Origin: Ignavibacteriales bacterium
GTDB taxonomy: Bacteria; Bacteroidota; Ignavibacteria; Ignavibacteriales; Melioribacteraceae
Direction of reading: 5' to 3'
Length of the DNA stretch: 64,000 nt
Assembly: GCA_026390775.1 (NCBI GenBank)
Contig: JAPLFF010000003.1
Coordinates: forward strand, 558,001-622,000
Position 1 is the first letter of the stretch, and each line of letters begins with the position of its first letter. The notes under the pieces are model-generated. The model was not told the DNA's origin. It searched no databases and was given only the letters and a program-made list of their open reading frames with translations. The position numbers were made by a program, and so were the translations under genes. Positions 32,230 through 43,135 of the stretch are shown here, piece by piece.

Positions 32230-32593
32230 TCTATAACCGTATTTGAATTTAGAATTCAGACTTATTGGAAAATGATGGAGTTAAAAATGAAAACATTTTC
32301 ACAAATCTTGTTTTCAATTTACGAAGTTTCAATTACTCCATCAATGAAGTGCCAGAATAAAGAATATTTATAATGTTTATTTTCAAATACAACAGTATAG
32401 AAAAATAAAAGGGGAGGAATAATAAGCAACATAAAACTTTTTGAATCAAAAAAAATCCGTTCCGTTTGGAACGAGGAAGAACAGAAATGGTATTTCTCTG
32501 TTGCCGATGTTGTTGAAGCATTAACGGACAGCACAGATATTAAACAGTATGTCAAAAGACTTCGGCAGCGTGATGAACAGTTGAATTCCAACT

Positions 32594-32612
32594 GGGGGAC
32601 AATTTGTCCCCC
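32594..32612. repeat. Perfect palindrome GGGGGACAA-T-TTGTCCCCC
   Basis: Nine-base arms with a one-base centre lie inside the broken Bro-N frame. Outer arms CCAACT (32588-32593) and AGTTGG (32618-32623) extend the structure. It occupies the position equivalent to the palindrome at 38087-38113 in the intact copy. Confidence 0.85.
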
Positions 32613-32631
32613 CCTTGAGTTGGAAACAAAT

Positions 32632-32650
32632 GGGGTACAATTTGTACCCC
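32632..32650. repeat. Perfect palindrome GGGGTACAA-T-TTGTACCCC
   Basis: Second nine-base-arm palindrome, 19 bases after the first and of the same design with changed middle bases (GTAC for GGAC). Located at the 3' end of the truncated Bro-N frame. Confidence 0.85.
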
Positions 32651-32786
32651 CTTATCAATGAACTACTTGGAAACTATCATTAGAACAACCTAAATGGAGC
32701 CACAATGGACTTAAAAGGAAAGACTGTCATCGTAATTGAGGATGAGCTGAGAATTGGTTTGGTGCTTTAATACAAATAATATTTTT

Positions 32787-34666: not shown

Positions 34667-36970
34667 ATGTCTAGAAAATATAAAACATGGAGTAAGTACA
34701 GTAACAGAAGCGAAAATATTTTCCACCCCGAATATATTTTTCAAGAAAATCCTTTTAAAGACATAAGTGTTGAAGAAAAAGATAATATATTGAAGGAAAT
34801 TGGTGAAAAAGTTTCAATAGAGTTACCAAAGTTATTCCAAGAGCTAAGGGAACAATTGCTCGAATTCATGCCCCTGCATCCTTTATGCTTACTCTCTTAT
34901 TATTTTCTTACTAAACCAGTTGGAACTAATAAAAAAAACATCATTAGGATAGAACAATTTCAAGTGGAATTGTTACAAGCTTTCTTCCTAACAATTCCGA
35001 TCGAGGATTACAAACATTTTAAACCCTTGACCCCTGATAAGGTAGATCCTTTTATTGAATTGATCAATAAATTTACTAGCTATAAAGAGTTATTAAAGGT
35101 TACAAACATTGATAGAACTCTATCTCAAGAGGAACTGAGTAAAAAAATGATTCTTGAATTGATAAGATCAAATACAGAAATTGTTCGGAATTGGGCATAT
35201 CCTGAAGCTACTTATAGAATGTTAACAGAAATTTATTCACTCGTGAATAATGAAATTTATCAGAAAACAAAAATTGATATTCTGGTTTTAATAAATTTTT
35301 TTAAAGAACTAACAGAATCTATTGAGGAAAGGATCAACGAGCATTGGAGAAAACTTAAAGAAATAATGAAAATGAATGATAAAAAAGAGATTATTTCAAA
35401 ATACATTAAATATTTTCCTTTAAAAAACACTGCTGAAGAATTGCTTGAATTTAGTAGACGGTTTCCCTCAAGAAAAGATTTTAAATACTGGTTGTTTGGT
35501 CATTCAGACATTTTGTTGAATGATTTATTTAAAATTGATTTCGATAAATTCGAGAAAAAGTATGCAGATAGATTAACAGATAACTTTATAATATTGCTAG
35601 ACCATCTTTCCAATAAATTAGGAGATCTTAAAGAATTCAACACAGATCATATTTATTTAGCCAATCCTATTTGGCTAAAACCTTTTATTAAAATAAATGA
35701 TAAAGAATATTACTATACAATACCGAATATGTTTCAACATAGTAGTTTTCAACTTATAGAAAACTTAATCTATCCAAAAGATGAAGAAATCAAAAAAAAG
35801 ATCGGAAAGAAAAAATCAAGTTTTCTAGAAGATTCAATTGAAAAATTATTCATTAATTCCTTCCCAGATGCAATAATTCATAAAAATCTTTATTGGTTTA
35901 GTACTGATGATATGAAAGATTATGAGAATGATGTTTTAGTAATAATCGATAATGTCTTTATTATCATTGAAGCAAAAGCCGGAAAATTCAGTGATTCTTC
36001 TAAAAGAGGATCGCTTCTAAGAATTGAACAAGAGTTTAATGAATTAATATTAGAACCAGCGATTCAATCAAAAAGATTTGAAAAATTTCTTGAGGTACAA
36101 GTTGGGATAACGAAATTAAAAGATAAAAATGGGACTGAGATTAAAATTGATTGTAATAATATTCGAAAGATTATTCGATTAAGTATTACTTTAGAATTTA
36201 TTCCAATTTTATCGAGTAGTAAAAAGGATTTATTAGAATCTGGATTCATTAACGATATTGAAACGCTCACTACGACAATGTCATTAAATGATCTGGAAAT
36301 AGTATTAGATTTATTACCAAAACAAAGTGAAAAAATACACTATTTTTCAAGAAGATTTGATTTTGAAAAAAATTCCCTTTTCAATGGTGATGAGTTAGAT
36401 ATTTTAGTATTCTATCTAGAAACTGGTTTTAATATTGGTGACACAGAGTTCAATCAAGAAATGCTAATGCTACAAGGAAATTCTGAAAAGTTGGATGATT
36501 ATTATCTTTTTCATTATAAAGATAATACAATTCTAAAACCTACTTCGAGAAGAACCCCATTTTGGAATGACATTTTAGAAAGATTTGAGAAAACACAGAA
36601 ACCAGGTTGGACAGAAATAGCTTATTCTTTATTAAATGTTAATTATGAAGATCAAATAAAAATTCAAGAAGCAGTAGAAAAACAAAGTAAAATTGTAATT
36701 CGAGATTGGGGAAAACCAAAATTAAATAATGCTGTAATACTAACTTATGGTCCACCTCAAAGAAAAGAAGTTTTTGTTTGGTTTCTTTATCTGGATATGC
36801 CGAAAGAAGAGCGTGATAAGCAAGTTCATAATATTGTTGGAAAAGAAATGGAAGAATTAAATGTTTCTAAGGTCCTAGTCATAGGATCAAATTTATCACA
36901 TAGTCATAGTCATTATCCTTATAGTTTCATTGCTTTGGTAACATCAAATATTACTGCTAATTCTGAATAA
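34667..36970 (+). CDS. Large protein with PD-(D/E)xK nuclease-like motif, unknown function
   Basis: 767 residues, no signal peptide or membrane segment. Residues 1 to about 400 are mainly helical and unrecognised. At 419-437 the sequence YENDVLVIIDNVFIIIEAK matches the restriction-endonuclease-like core: Asp422, then Glu435-x-Lys437 on the next strand. A basic helix follows (KRGSLLRIEQEFNE). The C-terminal 250 residues are mixed and end with HSHSHYPYSFIALVTSNI. I know no family for it. The gene appears more AT-rich than its neighbours and lies beside decayed restriction-modification and mobile sequences. A defence or DNA-processing role is an inference. Confidence 0.6.
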   Translation: MSRKYKTWSKYSNRSENIFHPEYIFQENPFKDISVEEKDNILKEIGEKVSIELPKLFQELREQLLEFMPLHPLCLLSYYFLTKPVGTNKKNIIRIEQFQVELLQAFFLTIPIEDYKHFKPLTPDKVDPFIELINKFTSYKELLKVTNIDRTLSQEELSKKMILELIRSNTEIVRNWAYPEATYRMLTEIYSLVNNEIYQKTKIDILVLINFFKELTESIEERINEHWRKLKEIMKMNDKKEIISKYIKYFPLKNTAEELLEFSRRFPSRKDFKYWLFGHSDILLNDLFKIDFDKFEKKYADRLTDNFIILLDHLSNKLGDLKEFNTDHIYLANPIWLKPFIKINDKEYYYTIPNMFQHSSFQLIENLIYPKDEEIKKKIGKKKSSFLEDSIEKLFINSFPDAIIHKNLYWFSTDDMKDYENDVLVIIDNVFIIIEAKAGKFSDSSKRGSLLRIEQEFNELILEPAIQSKRFEKFLEVQVGITKLKDKNGTEIKIDCNNIRKIIRLSITLEFIPILSSSKKDLLESGFINDIETLTTTMSLNDLEIVLDLLPKQSEKIHYFSRRFDFEKNSLFNGDELDILVFYLETGFNIGDTEFNQEMLMLQGNSEKLDDYYLFHYKDNTILKPTSRRTPFWNDILERFEKTQKPGWTEIAYSLLNVNYEDQIKIQEAVEKQSKIVIRDWGKPKLNNAVILTYGPPQRKEVFVWFLYLDMPKEERDKQVHNIVGKEMEELNVSKVLVIGSNLSHSHSHYPYSFIALVTSNITANSE

Positions 36971-37029
36971 ATTAATCCAACAAAATCAATTACCTAAACT
37001 GAACAATACTTTGGAAGTGAAGAGAAAAA

Positions 37030-37099
37030 ACTTAATCCACAACCATCACACAACTAGTCGGCATTTCAGGTTTAACAGAAAAAGAAATAAAAATTTAGA
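37030..37099. repeat. Composite repeat copy A
   Basis: AACTTAATCCACAACCATCA... through CATTTCAGGTTTAA (37030-37075) matches copies B and C and the last 13 codons of rqcH. AGAAATAAAAATTTAGAA (37083-37100) corresponds to the tail shared by copies B, C, E and F. This is the most diverged copy, at the left end of the module array. Confidence 0.7.
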
Positions 37100-37171
37100 A
37101 AGCAAAAAGAGTTAATTTCAATCTTAGATAAAAAAATAAAAGACAAAATAGCCAACGTGTGGGGAGAATAG
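37091..37171 (+). pseudogene. Remnant of the C-terminus of a type I methyltransferase (HsdM)
   Basis: An open stretch of 26 codons ends QKELISILDKKIKDKIANVWGE and a TAG stop. The ELI...KIKDKI..VWGE ending is characteristic of HsdM-type N6-adenine methylases. No start or catalytic region is present; an in-frame stop lies just upstream at 37088. It is therefore a fossil, leading directly into the gene at 37179 by 7 bases. Confidence 0.5.
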
Positions 37172-37178
37172 GAGAAAC

Positions 37179-37733
37179 ATGAAAACATTAGCAGAAATAT
37201 ATTTACCGGCAGAAGAACTATTGACGAACCAGTTGTTCAATATGATTCTGGATATAATAAAACAGAAGAAGAAAATTCCATATCTGGATTCAGATAAAAA
37301 CCCTAAAGAAGAGTATCTGGAATATTTCATAGTAACTGATGCTTTGATTTCTTTTAATAGAAAAGGCGGTAACAAAAAGAATAATAAAGTCACTGGCAAA
37401 CAATTAAAGGATGCTATTAAATATGCTTTGAGAACCGATGAAGAATTAACCAGGCAAAGCTTTAATAAAATGTACGGTACCTCGGTGGGTACTTCACTTT
37501 ATTCATTTATTAGCTTGGTTAAAAAAGAGATTACAAAATGTAGAATAGTCGGACACGAAATTTCTCATCAATCTTTTGGTAATGGTCTAATCTCCAAGAT
37601 CGAAATGCAAAAGGAATTTGTGTGGTTTAAGTATAATGATGATCTCAAAATGCTTTCTATGGATCACTTCTCACTTGGAAAAGAAGATGAGCAAAAAATT
37701 AAAAAAATATTAGACAGCGAGTGGGGAGAGTAA
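37179..37733 (+). CDS. Unknown 184-residue soluble protein in the repeat-bounded array
   Basis: 184 residues, lysine-rich, no membrane segment, no catalytic motif recognised. It begins MKTLAEIYLPAEELL, has a central RKGGNKKNNKVTGKQLKDA basic stretch, and ends DEQKIKKILDSEWGE. The upstream hsdM-type remnant ends similarly (VWGE), and both are followed by nearly the same bases (GTGGGGAGA), so this gene may once have been part of a restriction-modification operon (inference). AGGAGAAAC supplies the ribosome site. Bounded by repeat copies A and E. Confidence 0.6.
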   Translation: MKTLAEIYLPAEELLTNQLFNMILDIIKQKKKIPYLDSDKNPKEEYLEYFIVTDALISFNRKGGNKKNNKVTGKQLKDAIKYALRTDEELTRQSFNKMYGTSVGTSLYSFISLVKKEITKCRIVGHEISHQSFGNGLISKIEMQKEFVWFKYNDDLKMLSMDHFSLGKEDEQKIKKILDSEWGE

Positions 37734-37737
37734 GATG

Positions 37738-37846
37738 GAAGAAATAAAAATTGTAGAAGGTAACTGACCACCCCCTTTAATTTCCCCTCCTTTTTTTAAG
37801 GAGGGGAACGAAAGCCTGCCCGCCGTTATTTTGGCGGGGGGTGGTC
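37738..37846. repeat. Composite repeat copy E plus palindromic element P1
   Basis: The tail sequence GGAAGAAATAAAAATTGTAG starts at 37738 and runs into GACCACCCCC (37766-37775), which pairs exactly with GGGGGTGGTC (37837-37846). Nested inside are TTCCCCTCCTT (37782-37792) with AAGGAGGGGAA (37798-37808), and a third small stem CCCGCC/GGCGGG. This is the most complete copy of the palindrome in the window. Confidence 0.85.
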
Positions 37847-37915
37847 AAAACAAATACAACATTACAAATGAAAAACTCTAACATAGAATTTATAACGTTG
37901 AAAAGGGGGCTTTAG

Positions 37916-38752
37916 ATGAGCAACATAAAACTCTTCGAATCAAAAAAAATCCGTTCCGTTTGGAACGTGGAAGAACAAAAATGGTATTTCTCTGTAATTG
38001 ATATTATAACTGTATTAACAGAAAGTAACCGTCCAAGAAAATATTGGAGCGATTTAAAAAAGAAATTACTTAATGAAGGTTTTGAGCAGTTGTCCGAGAA
38101 AATCGGACAACTGAAATTAGAAGCAGATGATGGTAAAAAATATCTCACCGATGTTGCAGAAACTGAAACGTTAATGCGGTTAATCCAATCAATTCCATCC
38201 CCCAAAGCCGAACCGTTCAAACTATGGCTCGCAAAAGTTGGCTACGAACGTCTGGAAGAAATCGAAAATCCTGAGCTCGCTTCAAAAAGAATTAGAGAAA
38301 TATACAGAGCAAAAGGTTACAGCGATGAATGGATTGAAAAAAGAATACGCGGTATTGCAGTTCGTGATGAATTAACTGATGAATGGAAGAAGCGTGGTGT
38401 AAAAGAACATATTGAGTTTGCTATTTTAACTTCCGAAATAAGCAAAGCTACATTTGGTTTAACCCCTTCGGAATATAAAGAAGTAAAAAATCTGCCCGGT
38501 AAAAGTGAAAATCTTAGAGATCATATGAACGATCTCGAATTAATTTTTACAATGCTCGGCGAAGCTTCAACAACAGAAATAACAAAAGAAGCTGATGCAA
38601 AAGGATTTATTGAAAATAGAACTTCCGCAAAGAAAGGCGGTAAAATTGCCGGCGATGCAAGAGAAGCTCTTGAAAAAGAAACGGGCAAGAAAGTTGTTTC
38701 GAAAGAAAATTATCTTCAGTTAACTGAAAAGAAAAAACGGAAATTGAAATAA
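37916..38752 (+). CDS. Bro-N domain protein (phage antirepressor-like)
   Basis: 278 residues. The N-terminal Bro-N domain (SNIKLFESKKIRSVWN, KWYFSVIDIITVL, YWSDLKKKL, QLKLEADDGKKYLTDVA, RLIQSIPSPKAEPFKLWLA) is a DNA-binding fold found in phage antirepressors. The C-terminal half (RIREIYRAKGYSDEWIEKR, KKGGKIAGDAREALEKETGK) is the conserved extension of the chromosomal Bacteroidota-type family. Function unproven; regulation of mobile elements is likely. A decayed second copy lies at 32422. The gene sits between palindromes P1 and P2 and carries an internal palindrome at 38087-38113. Confidence 0.85.
   Translation: MSNIKLFESKKIRSVWNVEEQKWYFSVIDIITVLTESNRPRKYWSDLKKKLLNEGFEQLSEKIGQLKLEADDGKKYLTDVAETETLMRLIQSIPSPKAEPFKLWLAKVGYERLEEIENPELASKRIREIYRAKGYSDEWIEKRIRGIAVRDELTDEWKKRGVKEHIEFAILTSEISKATFGLTPSEYKEVKNLPGKSENLRDHMNDLELIFTMLGEASTTEITKEADAKGFIENRTSAKKGGKIAGDAREALEKETGKKVVSKENYLQLTEKKKRKLK
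38087..38113. repeat. Internal palindrome CAGTTGTCCGA-gaaaa-TCGGACAACTG
   Basis: Exact 11-base arms with a 5-base centre lie inside the Bro-N coding region, encoding QLSEKIGQL. The broken copy at 32422 has perfect palindromes at the same point of the gene but of different sequence. This could be an autoregulatory operator or a recombination site; it is also compatible with coding constraint alone. Confidence 0.75.
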
Positions 38753-38862
38753 AAATTGTAGAAACTAACTAACCACCCCCTTTAATTCCCCCTCCTCAAC
38801 AGAGGAGGGGGAGCGCATAATTTCCCCTCCTTTTTTTAAGGAGGGGAACACAAGGGGTGGTC
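38753..38862. repeat. Composite repeat copy F plus palindromic element P2
   Basis: The tail AAATAAAAATTGTAGAAACT leads into ACCACCCC (38772-38779), which pairs with GGGGTGGT (38854-38861). Two further perfect stems are nested side by side: TCCCCCTCCTC/GAGGAGGGGGA (38787-38797 with 38802-38812) and TTCCCCTCCTT/AAGGAGGGGAA (38822-38832 with 38838-38848). It sits immediately upstream of the DUF559 gene. Confidence 0.85.
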
Positions 38863-38883
38863 GAGAACAAGGGGATAAACATC

Positions 38884-39249
38884 ATGCCGAGATTACACAA
38901 CAAAAAAATATTAATCACACATAGGAAGCAGTTAAGAAACGATGCCACACAAGCAGAAAAAATGCTTTGGTACGAACTGAAAAATAGCCAATTAGACGGA
39001 CGAAAATTTAGGAGACAACATAGTGTTGGAAATTATATTTTAGATTTTTATTGTTCGGAAGAAAGATTAGCAATAGAATTAGATGGTGAACAACACGAGA
39101 ACGATAAACAAAAAGAACATGACCAATTAAGAACTGAATATTTGAACAGTCTTAGAATATCTGTCATTCGATTCAAGAATACAGATGTAATATTCGGAAG
39201 AGATTCTATTGTTAAAAAGATATTAGAAAAATTTAAGGGAGACAAATAA
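38884..39249 (+). CDS. DUF559 (Vsr-like) endonuclease-domain protein
   Basis: About 121 residues from the ATG at 38884, preceded by AAGGGGA. A longer frame from GTG at 38857 begins inside palindrome P2 and is unlikely. DUF559 is a Vsr/PD-(D/E)xK-related fold: NDATQAEKMLWYELKNSQL, RKFRRQHSVGNYILDFYCSE (catalytic Asp in the ILDFY strand), LAIELDGEQHEND (Glu-x-Asp-Gly with QH) and the closing VIRFKNTDVI. All key residues are kept. It is tightly bracketed by palindromes P2 and P3, the arrangement of a nuclease moving with its own palindromes (inference). Solitary; no methylase beside it. Confidence 0.88.
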   Translation: MPRLHNKKILITHRKQLRNDATQAEKMLWYELKNSQLDGRKFRRQHSVGNYILDFYCSEERLAIELDGEQHENDKQKEHDQLRTEYLNSLRISVIRFKNTDVIFGRDSIVKKILEKFKGDK

Positions 39250-39314
39250 CCTCACCGGTTCCCGATAAATCGAGACCACCCTCTCCTTACAAAGGAGAGG
39301 GGTAGGGGTGAGGT
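39249..39314. repeat. Palindromic element P3 (right of DUF559)
   Basis: ACCTCACC (39249-39256) pairs with GGTGAGGT (39307-39314); inside, CCTCTCCTT (39280-39288) pairs with AAGGAGAGG (39292-39300). It begins at the DUF559 stop codon. Same architecture as P1 and P2, with changed outer bases. Confidence 0.8.
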
Positions 39315-39324
39315 CAAAAAAGAA

Positions 39325-39404
39325 ATTTAATCCATCACCATCTCACACCCAACCGGGATTTCAGGTTTAGATGAAGAAGAAATAAAAATTGTAGATGGGC
39401 AATT
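39325..39404. repeat. Composite repeat copy B
   Basis: Core TTTAATCCATCACCATCTCA... to GGATTTCAGGTTTAG (39325-39370), then tail GAAGAAATAAAAATTGTAGA (39375-39394). On the minus strand the core would read KPEIPVGCEMVMD and stop, closely matching the rqcH C-terminus KPEIPNGCEMVTD. Confidence 0.75.
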
Positions 39405-39442
39405 AATATAGAGACGACATACATGCGTCTATACAAAAATAA

Positions 39443-39471
39443 ATTCCGCCGTAAATAATTTGCAGCGGAAT
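39443..39471 (-). terminator. Probable terminator of the cupredoxin gene
   Basis: ATTCCGC and GCGGAAT (39443-39449 and 39465-39471) are exact complements. On the minus strand, TTATTTTTG follows the stem. It lies 23 bases after the stop of the minus-strand gene at 39494. Confidence 0.7.
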
Positions 39472-39493
39472 AATGTTTTGTTTAAAAAATTTA

Positions 39494-40126
39494 TTATTTC
39501 ATCAACATCATTCTCTTTGTTAAAGTTAAAGAGTTAAATTGAATTCTGTAGAAGTAAATTCCGCTGGCTATCTTATTTGCGTTAAACTGAATTTGATGTG
39601 AACCGGCATTTTCAATTCCGTCTATTAATGTTGCAACTCTTTGTCCAATCATATTAAAAACCTCCAGAGTAATATATCCTGTGTTAGGCAATGAATATGT
39701 AATTGAAGTAGAAGGATTGAACGGGTTTGGATAGTTCTGATTCAAGATAAAATTATTTGGGATTATCTCACTAATAGTTTTTACATCGGTAGCATTATTG
39801 ACTGTTATGGTACCTTTCATCCCAAAAGATGCATGGGGTACACAAACATAATAGTGTATGCCTACTTGATTAAGCACAACTATTCCGCCGCCATTGGGAA
39901 GGTCAAATCCTCCATTGGAAGTTGTTCCATTCGCATTCCAAGTTGCCTGACTAACCTCGCGTGCATTATGAATCGATTCAAGAACAAATTTTACAGTATC
40001 ACCAACATTGATCGTAATACTGCCGGGTGAGAATGATGTACCGGAATTGTTAATGATATACGTCTTTGAAAAACTAATACTTGTGGCTGTAAGTGTTATT
40101 AGCAAAACAATAAACGTTTTTTTCAT
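39494..40126 (-). CDS. Secreted cupredoxin-like protein with type IX sorting domain
   Basis: 210 residues: signal peptide (FIVLLITLTATSISFS), a plastocyanin/azurin-type domain (about 20-115), then a T9SS sorting domain (QNYPNPFNPSTSITYSLP...GIYFYRIQF). The type 1 copper ligands are recognisable: His in ESIHNAREV, and Cys, His, Met in YYVCVPHASFGMKGTI. It would be a surface-attached or released copper electron carrier. It lies between repeat copies B and C. The opposite strand to its array neighbours and its own terminator make it an independent unit. Confidence 0.86.
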   Translation of the reverse strand: MKKTFIVLLITLTATSISFSKTYIINNSGTSFSPGSITINVGDTVKFVLESIHNAREVSQATWNANGTTSNGGFDLPNGGGIVVLNQVGIHYYVCVPHASFGMKGTITVNNATDVKTISEIIPNNFILNQNYPNPFNPSTSITYSLPNTGYITLEVFNMIGQRVATLIDGIENAGSHQIQFNANKIASGIYFYRIQFNSLTLTKRMMLMK

Positions 40127-40189
40127 ATTATTTCTCCTGTTGATACCTAAATAACACTTTTAAAAGCAATTTAGTTCTCAAACATGCAT

Positions 40190-40312
40190 GCCAATATTTT
40201 GGTGGGGTGTGGTTAAATATAAAAGATGAGAAGAAACTCAATCCGTTACCATCTCGCAGCCATTCGGAATTTCAGGTTTAATAGAAGAAATAAAAATTGT
40301 AGTAGGTAAATG
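40190..40312. repeat. Degenerate palindrome half plus composite repeat copy C
   Basis: ATTTTGGTGGGGTGTGGTTAAA (40196-40217) resembles the right half of P1. The core follows (AATCCGTTACCATCTCGCAG... to TTTCAGGTTTAA, 40240-40281), identical in predicted minus-strand peptide (IKPEIPNGCEMVTD) to the rqcH end. The tail GAAGAAATAAAAATTGTAG (40285-40303) then leads to TGACCACC (40311-40318), a palindrome start whose partner is lost. Confidence 0.75.
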
Positions 40313-40446
40313 ACCACCTCATGATTCTTTCAAAACTGCGGTAGATACTACTTCATTAAGTGGTAAGTAATTCTCTTCCAATCACTATGTAAAAGATGTA
40401 GTCCCTTTTTCATCCCTTTGCTCTATTGAATTTACGTTAAAATTAG

Positions 40447-40462
40447 TGGCATCTTAATTGCG
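40447..40462 (+). promoter_or_regulatory. Candidate sigma-54 promoter upstream of the DUF4382 gene
   Basis: TGGCATCTTAATTGCG fits the -24/-12 consensus (TGGCAC-N5-TTGC) with exact GG-N10-GC spacing. It lies 102 bases before the ATG at 40564. No sigma-54 activator is in the window. A single site by eye could be chance. Confidence 0.4.
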
Positions 40463-40563
40463 TAGTTAGTGAAGAATGCTAAAACAAAATAGATAGGGAA
40501 AATCTAAAAATGCGAAGAATCTATTTTTGCAATTTTGGGTTTGTTCAAAAAGGAGAGTTTTCA

Positions 40564-41370
40564 ATGAAACACAAGAAAGAAAATTTAATTCGTTTGGTTG
40601 TCACTTTAAGTTTTTTTGCAATAGTTATATTCATTTTCGGTTGTTCTACATCGCCTGAAAACGTGCAGGGACAAATAAGGATTACAATGGTTGATGCCCC
40701 TGCTAGCTTTGATCACATAAATATTGTTGTTACCAGAGTTGAAGTTCATAAAGCAAACGCTGATTCAAGTAGCGGTTGGGTTGTAATAAACAATGTTACA
40801 ACAACTTATGATTTGCTCACTTTAAGAAACGGTGCAAGTGCTATTCTTGGTAATACCTTACTTGATGCCGGGCACTATACACAAATAAGATTAATACTTG
40901 GAACAGGAAGTAATATTGTAGTAAACGGTACTGTATTTAGTCTTGATGTATCAAGTGGTGCGCAAACAGGAATAAAATTAAATCATGAATTTGATATCCA
41001 ACAGGGACTTGTTTACGAATTAACGCTTGATTTTAATGCTGAACATTCAATAGTACTTACCGGAAACGGACAGTATAAGTTGAATCCTGTTATTAGAGTT
41101 GCACCTATGGTAATCTCCGGAACCATTTCAGGCACGATAAACCCAGTAATCACTAAAGCATCTGTCTATGCAATAAGCGGAACAGATACAGTAAGTACAG
41201 TAGCAGATATAACCACGGGAACTTTTAAACTAATGGCAGTAATTCAGGGAACTTATACTGTAAAAGTTGTTTCAGGAAATGCTCTCTATAACGATAAAAC
41301 AATTGCTAATGTAATCGTTGTTGCAAAACAAAATACTGACTTAGGAACGATCAATTTAGTCCTGAAATAA
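40564..41370 (+). CDS. DUF4382 lipoprotein
   Basis: About 268 residues from the ATG at 40564, chosen for the strong AAAGGAGAG site and the lipoprotein signal that follows (TLSFFAIVIFIFGCST). Residues about 35-180 are DUF4382: GQIRITMVDAPASFDHINIV, VTRVEVHKA, YDLLTLRNGA, LDAGHYTQIRLIL, and LTLDFNAEHSIV. A Cna-B/carboxypeptidase-regulatory-like beta-sandwich follows at the C-terminus (SVYAISGTDTV...GTFKLMAVIQGTYTVKVV). Envelope-anchored; function unknown. Bounded by copy C and palindrome P4. Confidence 0.85.
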   Translation: MKHKKENLIRLVVTLSFFAIVIFIFGCSTSPENVQGQIRITMVDAPASFDHINIVVTRVEVHKANADSSSGWVVINNVTTTYDLLTLRNGASAILGNTLLDAGHYTQIRLILGTGSNIVVNGTVFSLDVSSGAQTGIKLNHEFDIQQGLVYELTLDFNAEHSIVLTGNGQYKLNPVIRVAPMVISGTISGTINPVITKASVYAISGTDTVSTVADITTGTFKLMAVIQGTYTVKVVSGNALYNDKTIANVIVVAKQNTDLGTINLVLK

Positions 41371-41397
41371 TATTGATTTATAATCTAAGAAGATTAC

Positions 41398-41445
41398 ATT
41401 CAGCTATCGGGTATTTTCCACCGGCTGAATTTAAATTCTTTTTCT
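41398..41445 (+). terminator. Probable terminator after the DUF4382 gene
   Basis: ATTCAGC (41398-41404) pairs with GCTGAAT (41424-41430), with CGG/CCG inside, followed by TTAAATTCTTTTTC on the plus strand. It lies 28 bases after the stop. Confidence 0.65.
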
Positions 41446-41452
41446 TAATATC

Positions 41453-41493
41453 TTCCCCTCTTTTTTTTAAGGAGGGGAACACAAGGGGTGGTC
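41453..41493. repeat. Palindromic element P4 (left outer arm lost)
   Basis: TTCCCCTC (41453-41460) pairs with GAGGGGAA (41472-41479), followed by the GGGGTGGTC right outer arm (41485-41493) shared with P1 and P2. No matching left outer arm is seen. It lies 31 bases from the rqcH stop. Confidence 0.75.
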
Positions 41494-41524
41494 AAGTAAT
41501 CATTTCATTGAGAAGCGAGATATA

Positions 41525-43135
41525 TTAATCCGTAACCATCTCACAACCATTCGGGATTTCCGGTTTGACTAACAAAACTTTTTCTTTAGTTACCGTAACT
41601 TGTCCGGGTTCGTGCCTTGCATTTTTTACTACATATTTTTTTAGCGTATAAGTTACGGGAACAAGTTTGGAAGTTTTTGCTTTACTGTAAAATGCGGCTA
41701 CGGAAGCCGTCTTATGCAAAATATTCTTTGGTACAGTTTCTTTTGTGTTTTCAACTCTTAGAACAACATGCGAACCGGAAACAGAACGCGCATGAAACCA
41801 GAAATCATTCTGCTTTGCAAATTTAGTTGTAAGCATATCGTTGTTCTTGCTGTCCTTGCCCACATAAATGTGGTACTTGCCGTCAATTAAAAAATGTCTG
41901 TATAACATTTTATCTTTTTTGTCGTCTGTTTGCGCTGACTGTGGTTTCATCTTCAATTCTTTTTTTATTTGGAGAAGTTCTTCCTGATCTTCCGTGCGCT
42001 CAAATTTATCTCTTATTTTTATTAACCGTTCATATTCTTTTGCATTTAGATTTAGCAGTTCACTCGATCTCTGATATTCAATCTTTTCTGCGCGTGATTT
42101 ATCATAATAGCGGTCAACATTCTGATTCGGTGAGAGTTTTTCATCAAGCTTTATTTTATATTTTTCACCTGTGGAATAATCTTCCAATTCAATTTCTTTC
42201 ATTCCTTTTCGCAGCAAATTTAAATTTGCAATCAACAGATCGCCGTACTGATGATAAACTTTTTCCTTAGTGCCGGCATCAACACGTCCTTTTAAGTTAT
42301 TCAACTTACCAGTTAATGATTCAATGGATTTTGTAAGAAACTTCTCAATTTCTTTTCTCACATTCTTAACCTTCGTTTCCGAGAAGGAGAGTGTGAAATA
42401 TTTGTTCAGAGCGCTAAAGTAATTATCAAATAAGAAGTGCTCTATAGGAATAGGATGTGAAATGAACGAAGCCGGATGAAAACTTGGTTTGCCAAGATCC
42501 TCATCATAGTAAACTGCTATCTTTTCTTGAATAATTTCCCACAACACGACGGAAAGATTCTTTCTAAAATCATTCTTACGAGAATCTGCTTCTCTTAGAA
42601 TATCTTTACCAATGGAAGGTAATTTCCGAATTAAAGAATCATCTGCTGTACTTTCTATGAATGAAGTAACTAAAGGAAACGAATCGGTAAAATTCAAAGC
42701 CGGCAGTTCATTAAGAAATCTTTCTCTTTCTTCTTTATCAACCTTCTTGAATGGATATAAATTATTCACAGAGTCTATAAGATATATATTGCTTTGTCCG
42801 CCGCGGAATACAACATATAATTTTGAATTGTTGAGAGTGAATTCAATTATACGGTCGCCCAATGCAATTTTTATCGAGTTGACTTTAGCCGGTAAATAGG
42901 TTTCAAAAAAACTTATTGTGTTTTTCTTTGCCTTATGATGCACATCTTTAGTTGTTATATAATGCTGCTGAGGATTTGTTGAAATGATTACATGGAATAA
43001 AGGTTTATCTTTTAACGGGATATGAAGAAATAGTTTGTCTTTCTCCTGAGTATAAGCTTCAAGTATTTGCTTTTCGTGAATTGCGGCAGATAATTCTTTG
43101 ATACATCTGAAAATAAAAAAATAATTTTTATACAT
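41525..43135 (-). CDS. rqcH: NFACT family protein, RqcH/FbpA-like ribosome-quality-control factor
   Basis: 536 residues. NFACT-N type domain at residues 1-200 (ELSAAIHEKQILEAYTQ, LHIPLKDKPLFHVIIST), a coiled middle (YERLIKIRDKFERTEDQEEL), and the NFACT-R/DUF814 domain near the C-terminus: YRHFLIDGKYHIYVGKDSKN and NDFWFHARSVSGSHVVLR. RqcH recruits tRNA-Ala to stalled 50S subunits to add Ala tails; in Firmicutes relatives it was first named a fibronectin-binding protein. The last 13 codons (KPEIPNGCEMVTD) are the sequence repeated three times downstream in the array. GTPase-like or other fusions are absent. Confidence 0.9.
   Translation of the reverse strand: MYKNYFFIFRCIKELSAAIHEKQILEAYTQEKDKLFLHIPLKDKPLFHVIISTNPQQHYITTKDVHHKAKKNTISFFETYLPAKVNSIKIALGDRIIEFTLNNSKLYVVFRGGQSNIYLIDSVNNLYPFKKVDKEERERFLNELPALNFTDSFPLVTSFIESTADDSLIRKLPSIGKDILREADSRKNDFRKNLSVVLWEIIQEKIAVYYDEDLGKPSFHPASFISHPIPIEHFLFDNYFSALNKYFTLSFSETKVKNVRKEIEKFLTKSIESLTGKLNNLKGRVDAGTKEKVYHQYGDLLIANLNLLRKGMKEIELEDYSTGEKYKIKLDEKLSPNQNVDRYYDKSRAEKIEYQRSSELLNLNAKEYERLIKIRDKFERTEDQEELLQIKKELKMKPQSAQTDDKKDKMLYRHFLIDGKYHIYVGKDSKNNDMLTTKFAKQNDFWFHARSVSGSHVVLRVENTKETVPKNILHKTASVAAFYSKAKTSKLVPVTYTLKKYVVKNARHEPGQVTVTKEKVLLVKPEIPNGCEMVTD

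Follow-up and report, generated by a model that had tools for sequence, protein, structure and literature searches.

The gene rqcH (NFACT/RqcH; Pfam NFACT_N and NFACT-R_1) lies at 41525..43135 on the minus strand of the window, the stretch of 64,000 nucleotides analysed here (Ignavibacteriales bacterium, assembly GCA_026390775.1, contig JAPLFF010000003.1, positions 558,001 to 622,000), and is followed downstream by an array of small accessory genes, here called modules, and by short copies of its own 3' end. The genome (G000) comprises 3.01 Mb in 8 contigs, and its nearest compared relatives by rqcH are the Melioribacter metagenome-assembled genomes MnB_16 (G003) and nzgw155 (G005).

The repeated core of 42 bp corresponds to the final 13 codons and the stop of rqcH. 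It is found at the current 3' end (41525-41566, minus strand, encoding KPEIPNGCEMVTD and a stop) and in three displaced copies in the orientation of rqcH, namely copy B (40238..40279, minus strand, likewise KPEIPNGCEMVTD and a stop), copy C (39327..39368, minus strand, KPEIPVGCEMVMD and a stop) and copy A (37032..37073, minus strand, KPEMPTSCVMVVD and a stop). A first-pass annotation of this DNA had described a core of about 42 bp at these four sites, all in the same direction, and this was borne out. When an 80-bp query consisting of copy C and its adjoining tail was searched against the genome, copy B (E 3e-15), copy A (E 1.5e-12) and the true end (E 2e-7) were retrieved, values that speak against a chance resemblance; the best match outside the locus (E 0.03) was to the tail alone. 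The idea of a random-copy repeat scattered over the genome was rejected, as in this search the core was absent from the rest of G000 and confined to the rqcH locus.

Directly downstream of rqcH follow a DUF4382 gene (40510..41370, plus strand), a cupredoxin gene with a secretion-sorting tail (39494..40126, minus strand), an endonuclease-like DUF559 gene (38884..39249, plus strand, with weak endonuclease matches), a Bro-N/BRO gene (37916..38752, plus strand) and a gene of 184 amino acids (aa) without a family match (37179..37733, plus strand), a homologue of which is 95% identical in G005. Pfam confirmed these genes as originally named. No integrase match was found by Pfam among the seven open reading frames (ORFs) in 34667-43135. 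Most modules consist of one gene and measure about 0.6-1.3 kb, and one of 2.6 kb holds several ORFs. The earlier statement that one gene sits between successive repeats needs correction, since by the core alone three genes (184 aa, Bro-N and DUF559) lie between A and C and are split only by the tails described below.

Core copies in sister genomes

The origin of copy C could be traced by its flank. Copy C and the sequence next to it (39270-39368) align with the present end of rqcH in G005 and its flank (L064 2183-2082; 88% over 103 columns, E 4e-30), so copy C is regarded as a former rqcH end. The rqcH of G005 is 92% identical to that of G000. The flank of the present rqcH end in G000 matches the flank in G003, and this end appears to have arrived with a newer module or to have been recombined onto one. 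It had been suggested that the target is duplicated with each insertion. In this form the suggestion was not supported, as copy C is the old end and the present end the newer one; simple target-site duplication was rejected because the copies differ by old synonymous changes.

Copy A also occurs in G005 in a decayed form, 11 bases short, and was not detected there by a peptide scan of 40 loci. In G003, the DUF559 gene sits straight behind the present rqcH end and is followed by an intact displaced end, D, encoding KPEIPAGCEMVTD and a stop. On contig C12 of this genome, a palindrome, a tail and D are followed by a broken Bro-N gene, a whole Bro-N gene, an Abi-like ORF (PADLOC PD-T4-5, scoring under the cut-off of Pfam Abi_2) and an ORF of 201 aa; the join to C12 is by an exact 55-base overlap, and overlaps of this kind may mislead where repeats occur. 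The three closest genomes, G000, G005 and G003, thus carry different module sets after rqcH. Four more distant congeners (G006, G010, G001 and G007) have an empty site, in which a family 9 glycosyltransferase gene starts 117-153 bp past rqcH; an orthologue of this gene was checked and is present in the window. Comparison of the regions downstream of rqcH therefore revealed both empty sites and module gains, in line with the repeated gene gain beside a conserved gene end that had been proposed. In G004 another ORF follows rqcH, and in G002 the contig stops. Outside the clade, a scan for displaced ends only found no displaced rqcH copy in any of 38 rqcH-downstream loci, three of them below 5 kb at contig ends. 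Judged from these sequence comparisons, the extra core copies are very probably former rqcH ends that were moved downstream more than once, in different events in the three sister genomes, rqcH itself being left with another allele of its final 42 bp.

Substitutions in the core were classified with stop changes counted as synonymous, and random substitutions of our own served as null model. The true end and B differ by six synonymous and no nonsynonymous changes (0/4000 trials), and the true end of G003 and D by a synonymous to nonsynonymous ratio of 5:2 (P 0.0035). In another gene, yifB of genome G123 (see below), end and displaced end differ by 6:1 (P 0.00025). This synonymous excess indicates that B, D and the yifB copy evolved as genuine gene ends. 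Compared with copy C, the true ends of G003 and G005 gave 5:1 and 3:2, respectively.

The current end of G000 appears to be a mosaic. Over the whole rqcH gene, G000 is nearer to G005 (89.1%) than to G003 (86.4%), and the 42 bp ahead of the core are 98% like G005 and 86% like G003. Inside the core, four sites (-27 to -21) tie G000 to G005, and two sites (-9 and -7) together with the flank tie it to G003, which makes a crossover within the core likely. In the rqcH gene body no significant breakpoint was found (permutation P 0.46) by a test that is unable to weigh the last sites.

In the neighbourhood of the array, a 321-aa ORF in G005 (L064 11680-12645), with weak TIR-effector and deoxyribosyltransferase matches, replaces a 767-aa orphan of the window (34667-36970).

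Tails and palindromes

The extra tail had been noticed at copies A-C and two more places, and all five occurrences were recovered on the plus strand: at copy A (37069..37098, GLTEKEIKI and a stop), after the 184-aa gene (37735..37767, MEEIKIVEGN and a stop), overlapping the Bro-N stop (38743..38772, IEIKIVETN and a stop), at copy C (39364..39411, GLDEEEIKIVDGQLI and a stop, sharing GGTTT with the core) and at copy B (40275..40313, GLIEEIKIVVGK and a stop). In genome G020, an Eco57I/TaqI_C ORF ends in LYGLTEEEIKIVEG and a stop and is followed by DUF559. Likewise, a 1198-aa Eco57I/TaqI_C ORF in G096 (L296) ends in LYGLTEEEIKIVEGK and a stop; next come a Bro-N/DinD-type gene and a gene, DUF559-like on the authors' reading, that is broken into two ORFs; this gene order is that of the window, with palindromes in between. 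Ahead of Bro-N, G003 has a longer version of the tail, QLYGLPEEDIKIVEG. Based on these C-termini and the longer version, the tail was assigned to the 3' end of an Eco57I-type restriction-modification (R-M) gene. The composite of core and tail is then a joint of two gene ends, rqcH and R-M, and R-M tails are possibly displaced in the same way as rqcH ends. Scans with the R-M C-terminus over the compared loci did not find a whole R-M gene beside rqcH.

Palindromes were located at 37766..37846 (the dispersed GACCACCCC palindrome), at 38771..38862 (a double palindrome between Bro-N and DUF559), at 39274..39315 (a GAGGTC palindrome in the copy C flank common to G005) and at 41454..41493 (between DUF4382 and rqcH, in the flank common to G003). 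They belong to a dispersed genome repeat, of which 8 more copies (E<1e-4) occur elsewhere in the genome; these are placed at gene ends and, in the 3-kb stretches examined, have no surrounding direct repeats. As they are dispersed across the genome, palindromes were rejected as att sites. Of the composite repeats first described, the tail-core joint is real, the tail is an R-M gene end and the palindromes are a dispersed repeat.

Other conserved genes and the Bro-N protein

A similar pattern, again read from sequence, appears at further conserved genes in related bacteria, namely yifB, der and hsdM (identities checked with Pfam) and a 151-aa ORF. Behind yifB, a BRO/DinD gene is found in G123 and G045 and a broken one in G058, and in all three a displaced end of yifB comes next. 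What lies beyond this end in G123 matches the native yifB flank of G122 and G067 (79% over 223 columns and 82% over 209 columns, respectively), two genomes with an empty site; G124 matched in part only and was left out of this comparison. The displaced yifB end in G045 covers at least 48 bp, perhaps 64. In G011, der is followed by a Bro-N gene and then by a displaced end of 43 bp, which differs at one synonymous site; the der flanks of 8 other congeners did not distinguish the older end from the newer. Between hsdM of G038 and a displaced hsdM end of about 54-57 bp stands a Y1_Tnp (RAYT-like) gene; the displaced end retains the junction with the next gene. In G116, an insert of 2.6 kb that includes Bro-N among its ORFs separates the 151-aa ORF from its displaced end of 90 bp. 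A fixed length of 42 bp for every target was rejected, as it seemed to fit rqcH and der but fails at yifB (G045), hsdM and the G116 ORF. The R-M tail was not seen in the yifB, der and hsdM cases.

Displaced ends were counted in three sets of loci. The Bro-N set (80 loci, 622 ORFs; 79 loci picked for Bro-N and the G058 yifB locus, L307, fetched for yifB) contained five true displaced ends and two CRISPR-like (clustered regularly interspaced short palindromic repeat) matches, and no such end in 75 of the 80 loci. The DUF559 set, from which the window and G003 were excluded (48 loci, 28 short and 20 longer, some overlapping; 247 ORFs), contained one CRISPR-like match and no displaced end in any locus. 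In the control set (38 loci, 673 ORFs) a single paralogue match was obtained, and none after setting it aside; reversed sequences gave none in all three sets. Since the five cases represent three independent events, the association with Bro-N is suggestive only. The hsdM case came from another scan and was missed by the counting scan, probably because the match end has diverged. Matches set aside were CRISPR-like repeats on the authors' reading (L216, L273, L241 and L322), paralogous genes (L093, permeases, and L083) and low-complexity or weak matches (L226, L238, L078, L098 and L259); L245 was doubtful at first and retained after reading. Separately, the CRISPR-like arrays of L216, L273 and L241 lie within about 4 kb of Bro-N genes. 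In L153 and L154, Bro-N is flanked by a direct repeat of at most 133 bp holding the start of a small ORF, read as antitoxin-like by the authors, and in L125, L130, L136 and L144 DUF559 genes of related genomes stand between direct repeats of 44-133 bp, palindromic in three of the four.

Bro-N is the commonest module protein and matches the PADLOC candidate PDC-S13 (E 4e-125). Its AlphaFold model has a mean pLDDT of 86.8, and a Foldseek search with this model gave six matches at E<0.001, all to Deinococcus DdrC (best E 2e-6). By VIA, model and DdrC aligned over 214 residues with a Z of 13.4 and a root-mean-square deviation of 9.1, compared with a Z of 6.4 for the best unrelated chain; the N-domain alone reached Z 7.8. 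Bro-N is therefore predicted to have the two-domain DdrC fold; the large deviation perhaps reflects domain placement, and the match of the helical C-domain should be read cautiously. A search for sequence relatives of solved structure found none (best E 0.39). The best VIA rows held no nuclease except topoisomerase/gyrase fragments (Z about 3), a nuclease still being possible. DdrC binds DNA, promotes its circularisation and anneals strands, as stated in part of the source (PMC5436757).

Further observations concern the Bro-N genes themselves. Those of G000, G005 and G003 (window 37990-38170, L149 and L150) are closely similar at both ends and strongly different in the centre of the Bro-N domain, a pattern that would fit the exchange of a specificity segment. 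In L178 (2817-3491), the leader and opening codons of Bro-N (MSSIKL) are found on a 201-aa ORF that does not otherwise resemble it, so exchange may affect 5' ends as well. A decayed Bro-N fragment at 32358-32653, between a GMC oxidoreductase and a glycosyltransferase gene, is not present in G005.

Possible mechanisms and related systems

That gene 3' ends are displaced is itself hardly in doubt. The best explanation, with somewhat less than an even chance of being right, is the integration of a circularised fragment of gene 3' end and passenger by one crossover in the short gene end. Incoming DNA would carry the rqcH 3' end, a passenger gene and a tail, and its ends would join into a circle, the joint of tail and core with its GGTTT overlap being that of the circle. 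A single crossover within the 42-bp end would integrate the circle, and selection would retain an insert only if the RqcH C-terminus was still encoded at its end. Bro-N, by virtue of its predicted fold, may help in circularisation or annealing. This explanation was ranked first because the observed order of new end, module, joint and old end follows from it, because the gene end suffices as homology, and because it parallels the Rhs model and one fate of linear DNA in Escherichia coli, which can circularise and then integrate by a single crossover, according to part of one account (PMC3240628).

Several observations weigh against it. No circle was seen, and cupredoxin and DUF4382 are not DNA-processing genes. 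A homology of 42 bp is short for RecA, and the crossover was mapped by six informative sites. The displaced der flank does not match the relatives' flanks. Not all copies show the synonymous excess: the true end gave 3:3 against C (P 0.08) and 1:6 against A (P 0.72), neither significant, the latter as expected of an old stub, and hsdM gave 4:4 (no P). In G000, copies A, B and C start with AAACCT; the three true ends, D and copy A of G005 start with AAACCG, which argues against a single clone behind every joint. Enrichment near Bro-N is weak (5/622 versus 0/673 ORFs, P 0.025; 4/610 and P 0.051 without L307; P 0.11 by three independent events).

Among the alternatives, nuclease homing as in the WHO elements of yeast is rather unlikely; an endonuclease of the module would cut sensitive alleles of the host gene close to their 3' end, and repair would copy in the module together with a resistant end and displace the old one outward. 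The anatomy is very near to that of the WHO clusters at FBA1 in Torulaspora and Lachancea, where, as far as described in part of PMC7282813, each insertion brings a new 3' end, the old one is displaced and decays, and units stack downstream; in the rqcH array, too, the host 3' end is replaced and the old end kept downstream. WHO elements are, however, eukaryotic, with a breakpoint deep in the gene and an HO-like nuclease, whereas the array has ends of 42-90 bp, mixed passengers and a nuclease role that is only a candidate. DUF559, with its weak endonuclease matches, stands directly behind the present G003 end, and the gene at hsdM encodes a Y1_Tnp protein. Y1_Tnp is an HUH nuclease family. An HO/intein-type endonuclease in each unit was not found, as Pfam shows Bro-N, DUF559, cupredoxin, DUF4382 or nothing; the 184-aa, cupredoxin and DUF4382 modules have no nuclease family, the commonest module protein resembles DdrC, and the 48 DUF559 loci scanned outside the window and G003 lacked displaced ends. 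It is equally doubtful that a bacterial counterpart of WHO exists, in which small selfish or defence cassettes, each with a functional gene end of its own, spread by swapping the last few dozen bases of conserved genes such as rqcH, der, yifB and R-M genes. In this boldest reading, the cassette's own DNA-processing protein (DUF559, BRO/DdrC-fold or RAYT) would drive insertion without integrase, intron or intein.

Less probable still are integrase-less, cis-mobilisable islets with the gene 3' end as att site and a tyrosine recombinase supplied from elsewhere. Att sites that restore gene ends are common, for instance e14 at icd, and in integrative elements in gene 3' ends and CIMEs the att overlap restores the end, a displaced copy lies on the far side and tandem accretion occurs. 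The att-like core that restores the gene end, with copies on both sides of the insert, is shared with these, a crossover within a short core fits, and Phage_integrase proteins occur in 57/57 genomes searched. On the other hand, the seven ORFs contain no integrase gene (a cis-mobilisable remnant would need none), no word longer than 5 bases is common to the final 42 bp of rqcH, der and yifB, and displaced lengths range from 42 to about 90 bp. A single microhomology-mediated tandem duplication (GGTTT) of convergent R-M and rqcH ends, followed by unequal crossing-over and independent gene insertions, is more doubtful again. It would produce from two GGTTT repeats exactly the tail-core joint observed, and all joints are alike, but it conflicts with the lack of a whole R-M gene beside rqcH in the loci scanned and with the old synonymous differences among the cores, and leaves yifB, der and hsdM, where there is no such tail, unexplained. 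Homology-facilitated illegitimate recombination at DNA uptake, with homologous pairing in the gene and a random far join, seems the least credible; it gives one-sided homology and short retained ends and is known in competent bacteria, according to part of PMC3240628, but the far joints of A, B, C and D are of the same kind, tail to core, unlike random joins.

Displacement of Rhs C-termini is also bacterial, with the old 3' end shunted downstream by an incoming one that brings associated genes, and a circle with a single crossover has been proposed in the part of PMC2935791 concerned. Rhs tips are non-homologous, whereas the new end of the rqcH array encodes the same C-terminus and the payload is an unrelated gene. 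Displaced 3' fragments are arrayed downstream here as well; the host gene is NFACT/rqcH and not an rhs or polymorphic toxin gene. Literature searches, which covered titles and abstract openings, found no account of displacement of this kind in bacteria.

Displacement of gene ends suggests how single genes, among them candidate defence genes, may come to stand beside conserved genes with no integrase in the module and no damage to the gene. It would explain puzzling gene-end stubs between accessory genes and give a time order of module gains, and it connects BRO/DinD-type orphan genes with their own insertion in a way that can be tested.

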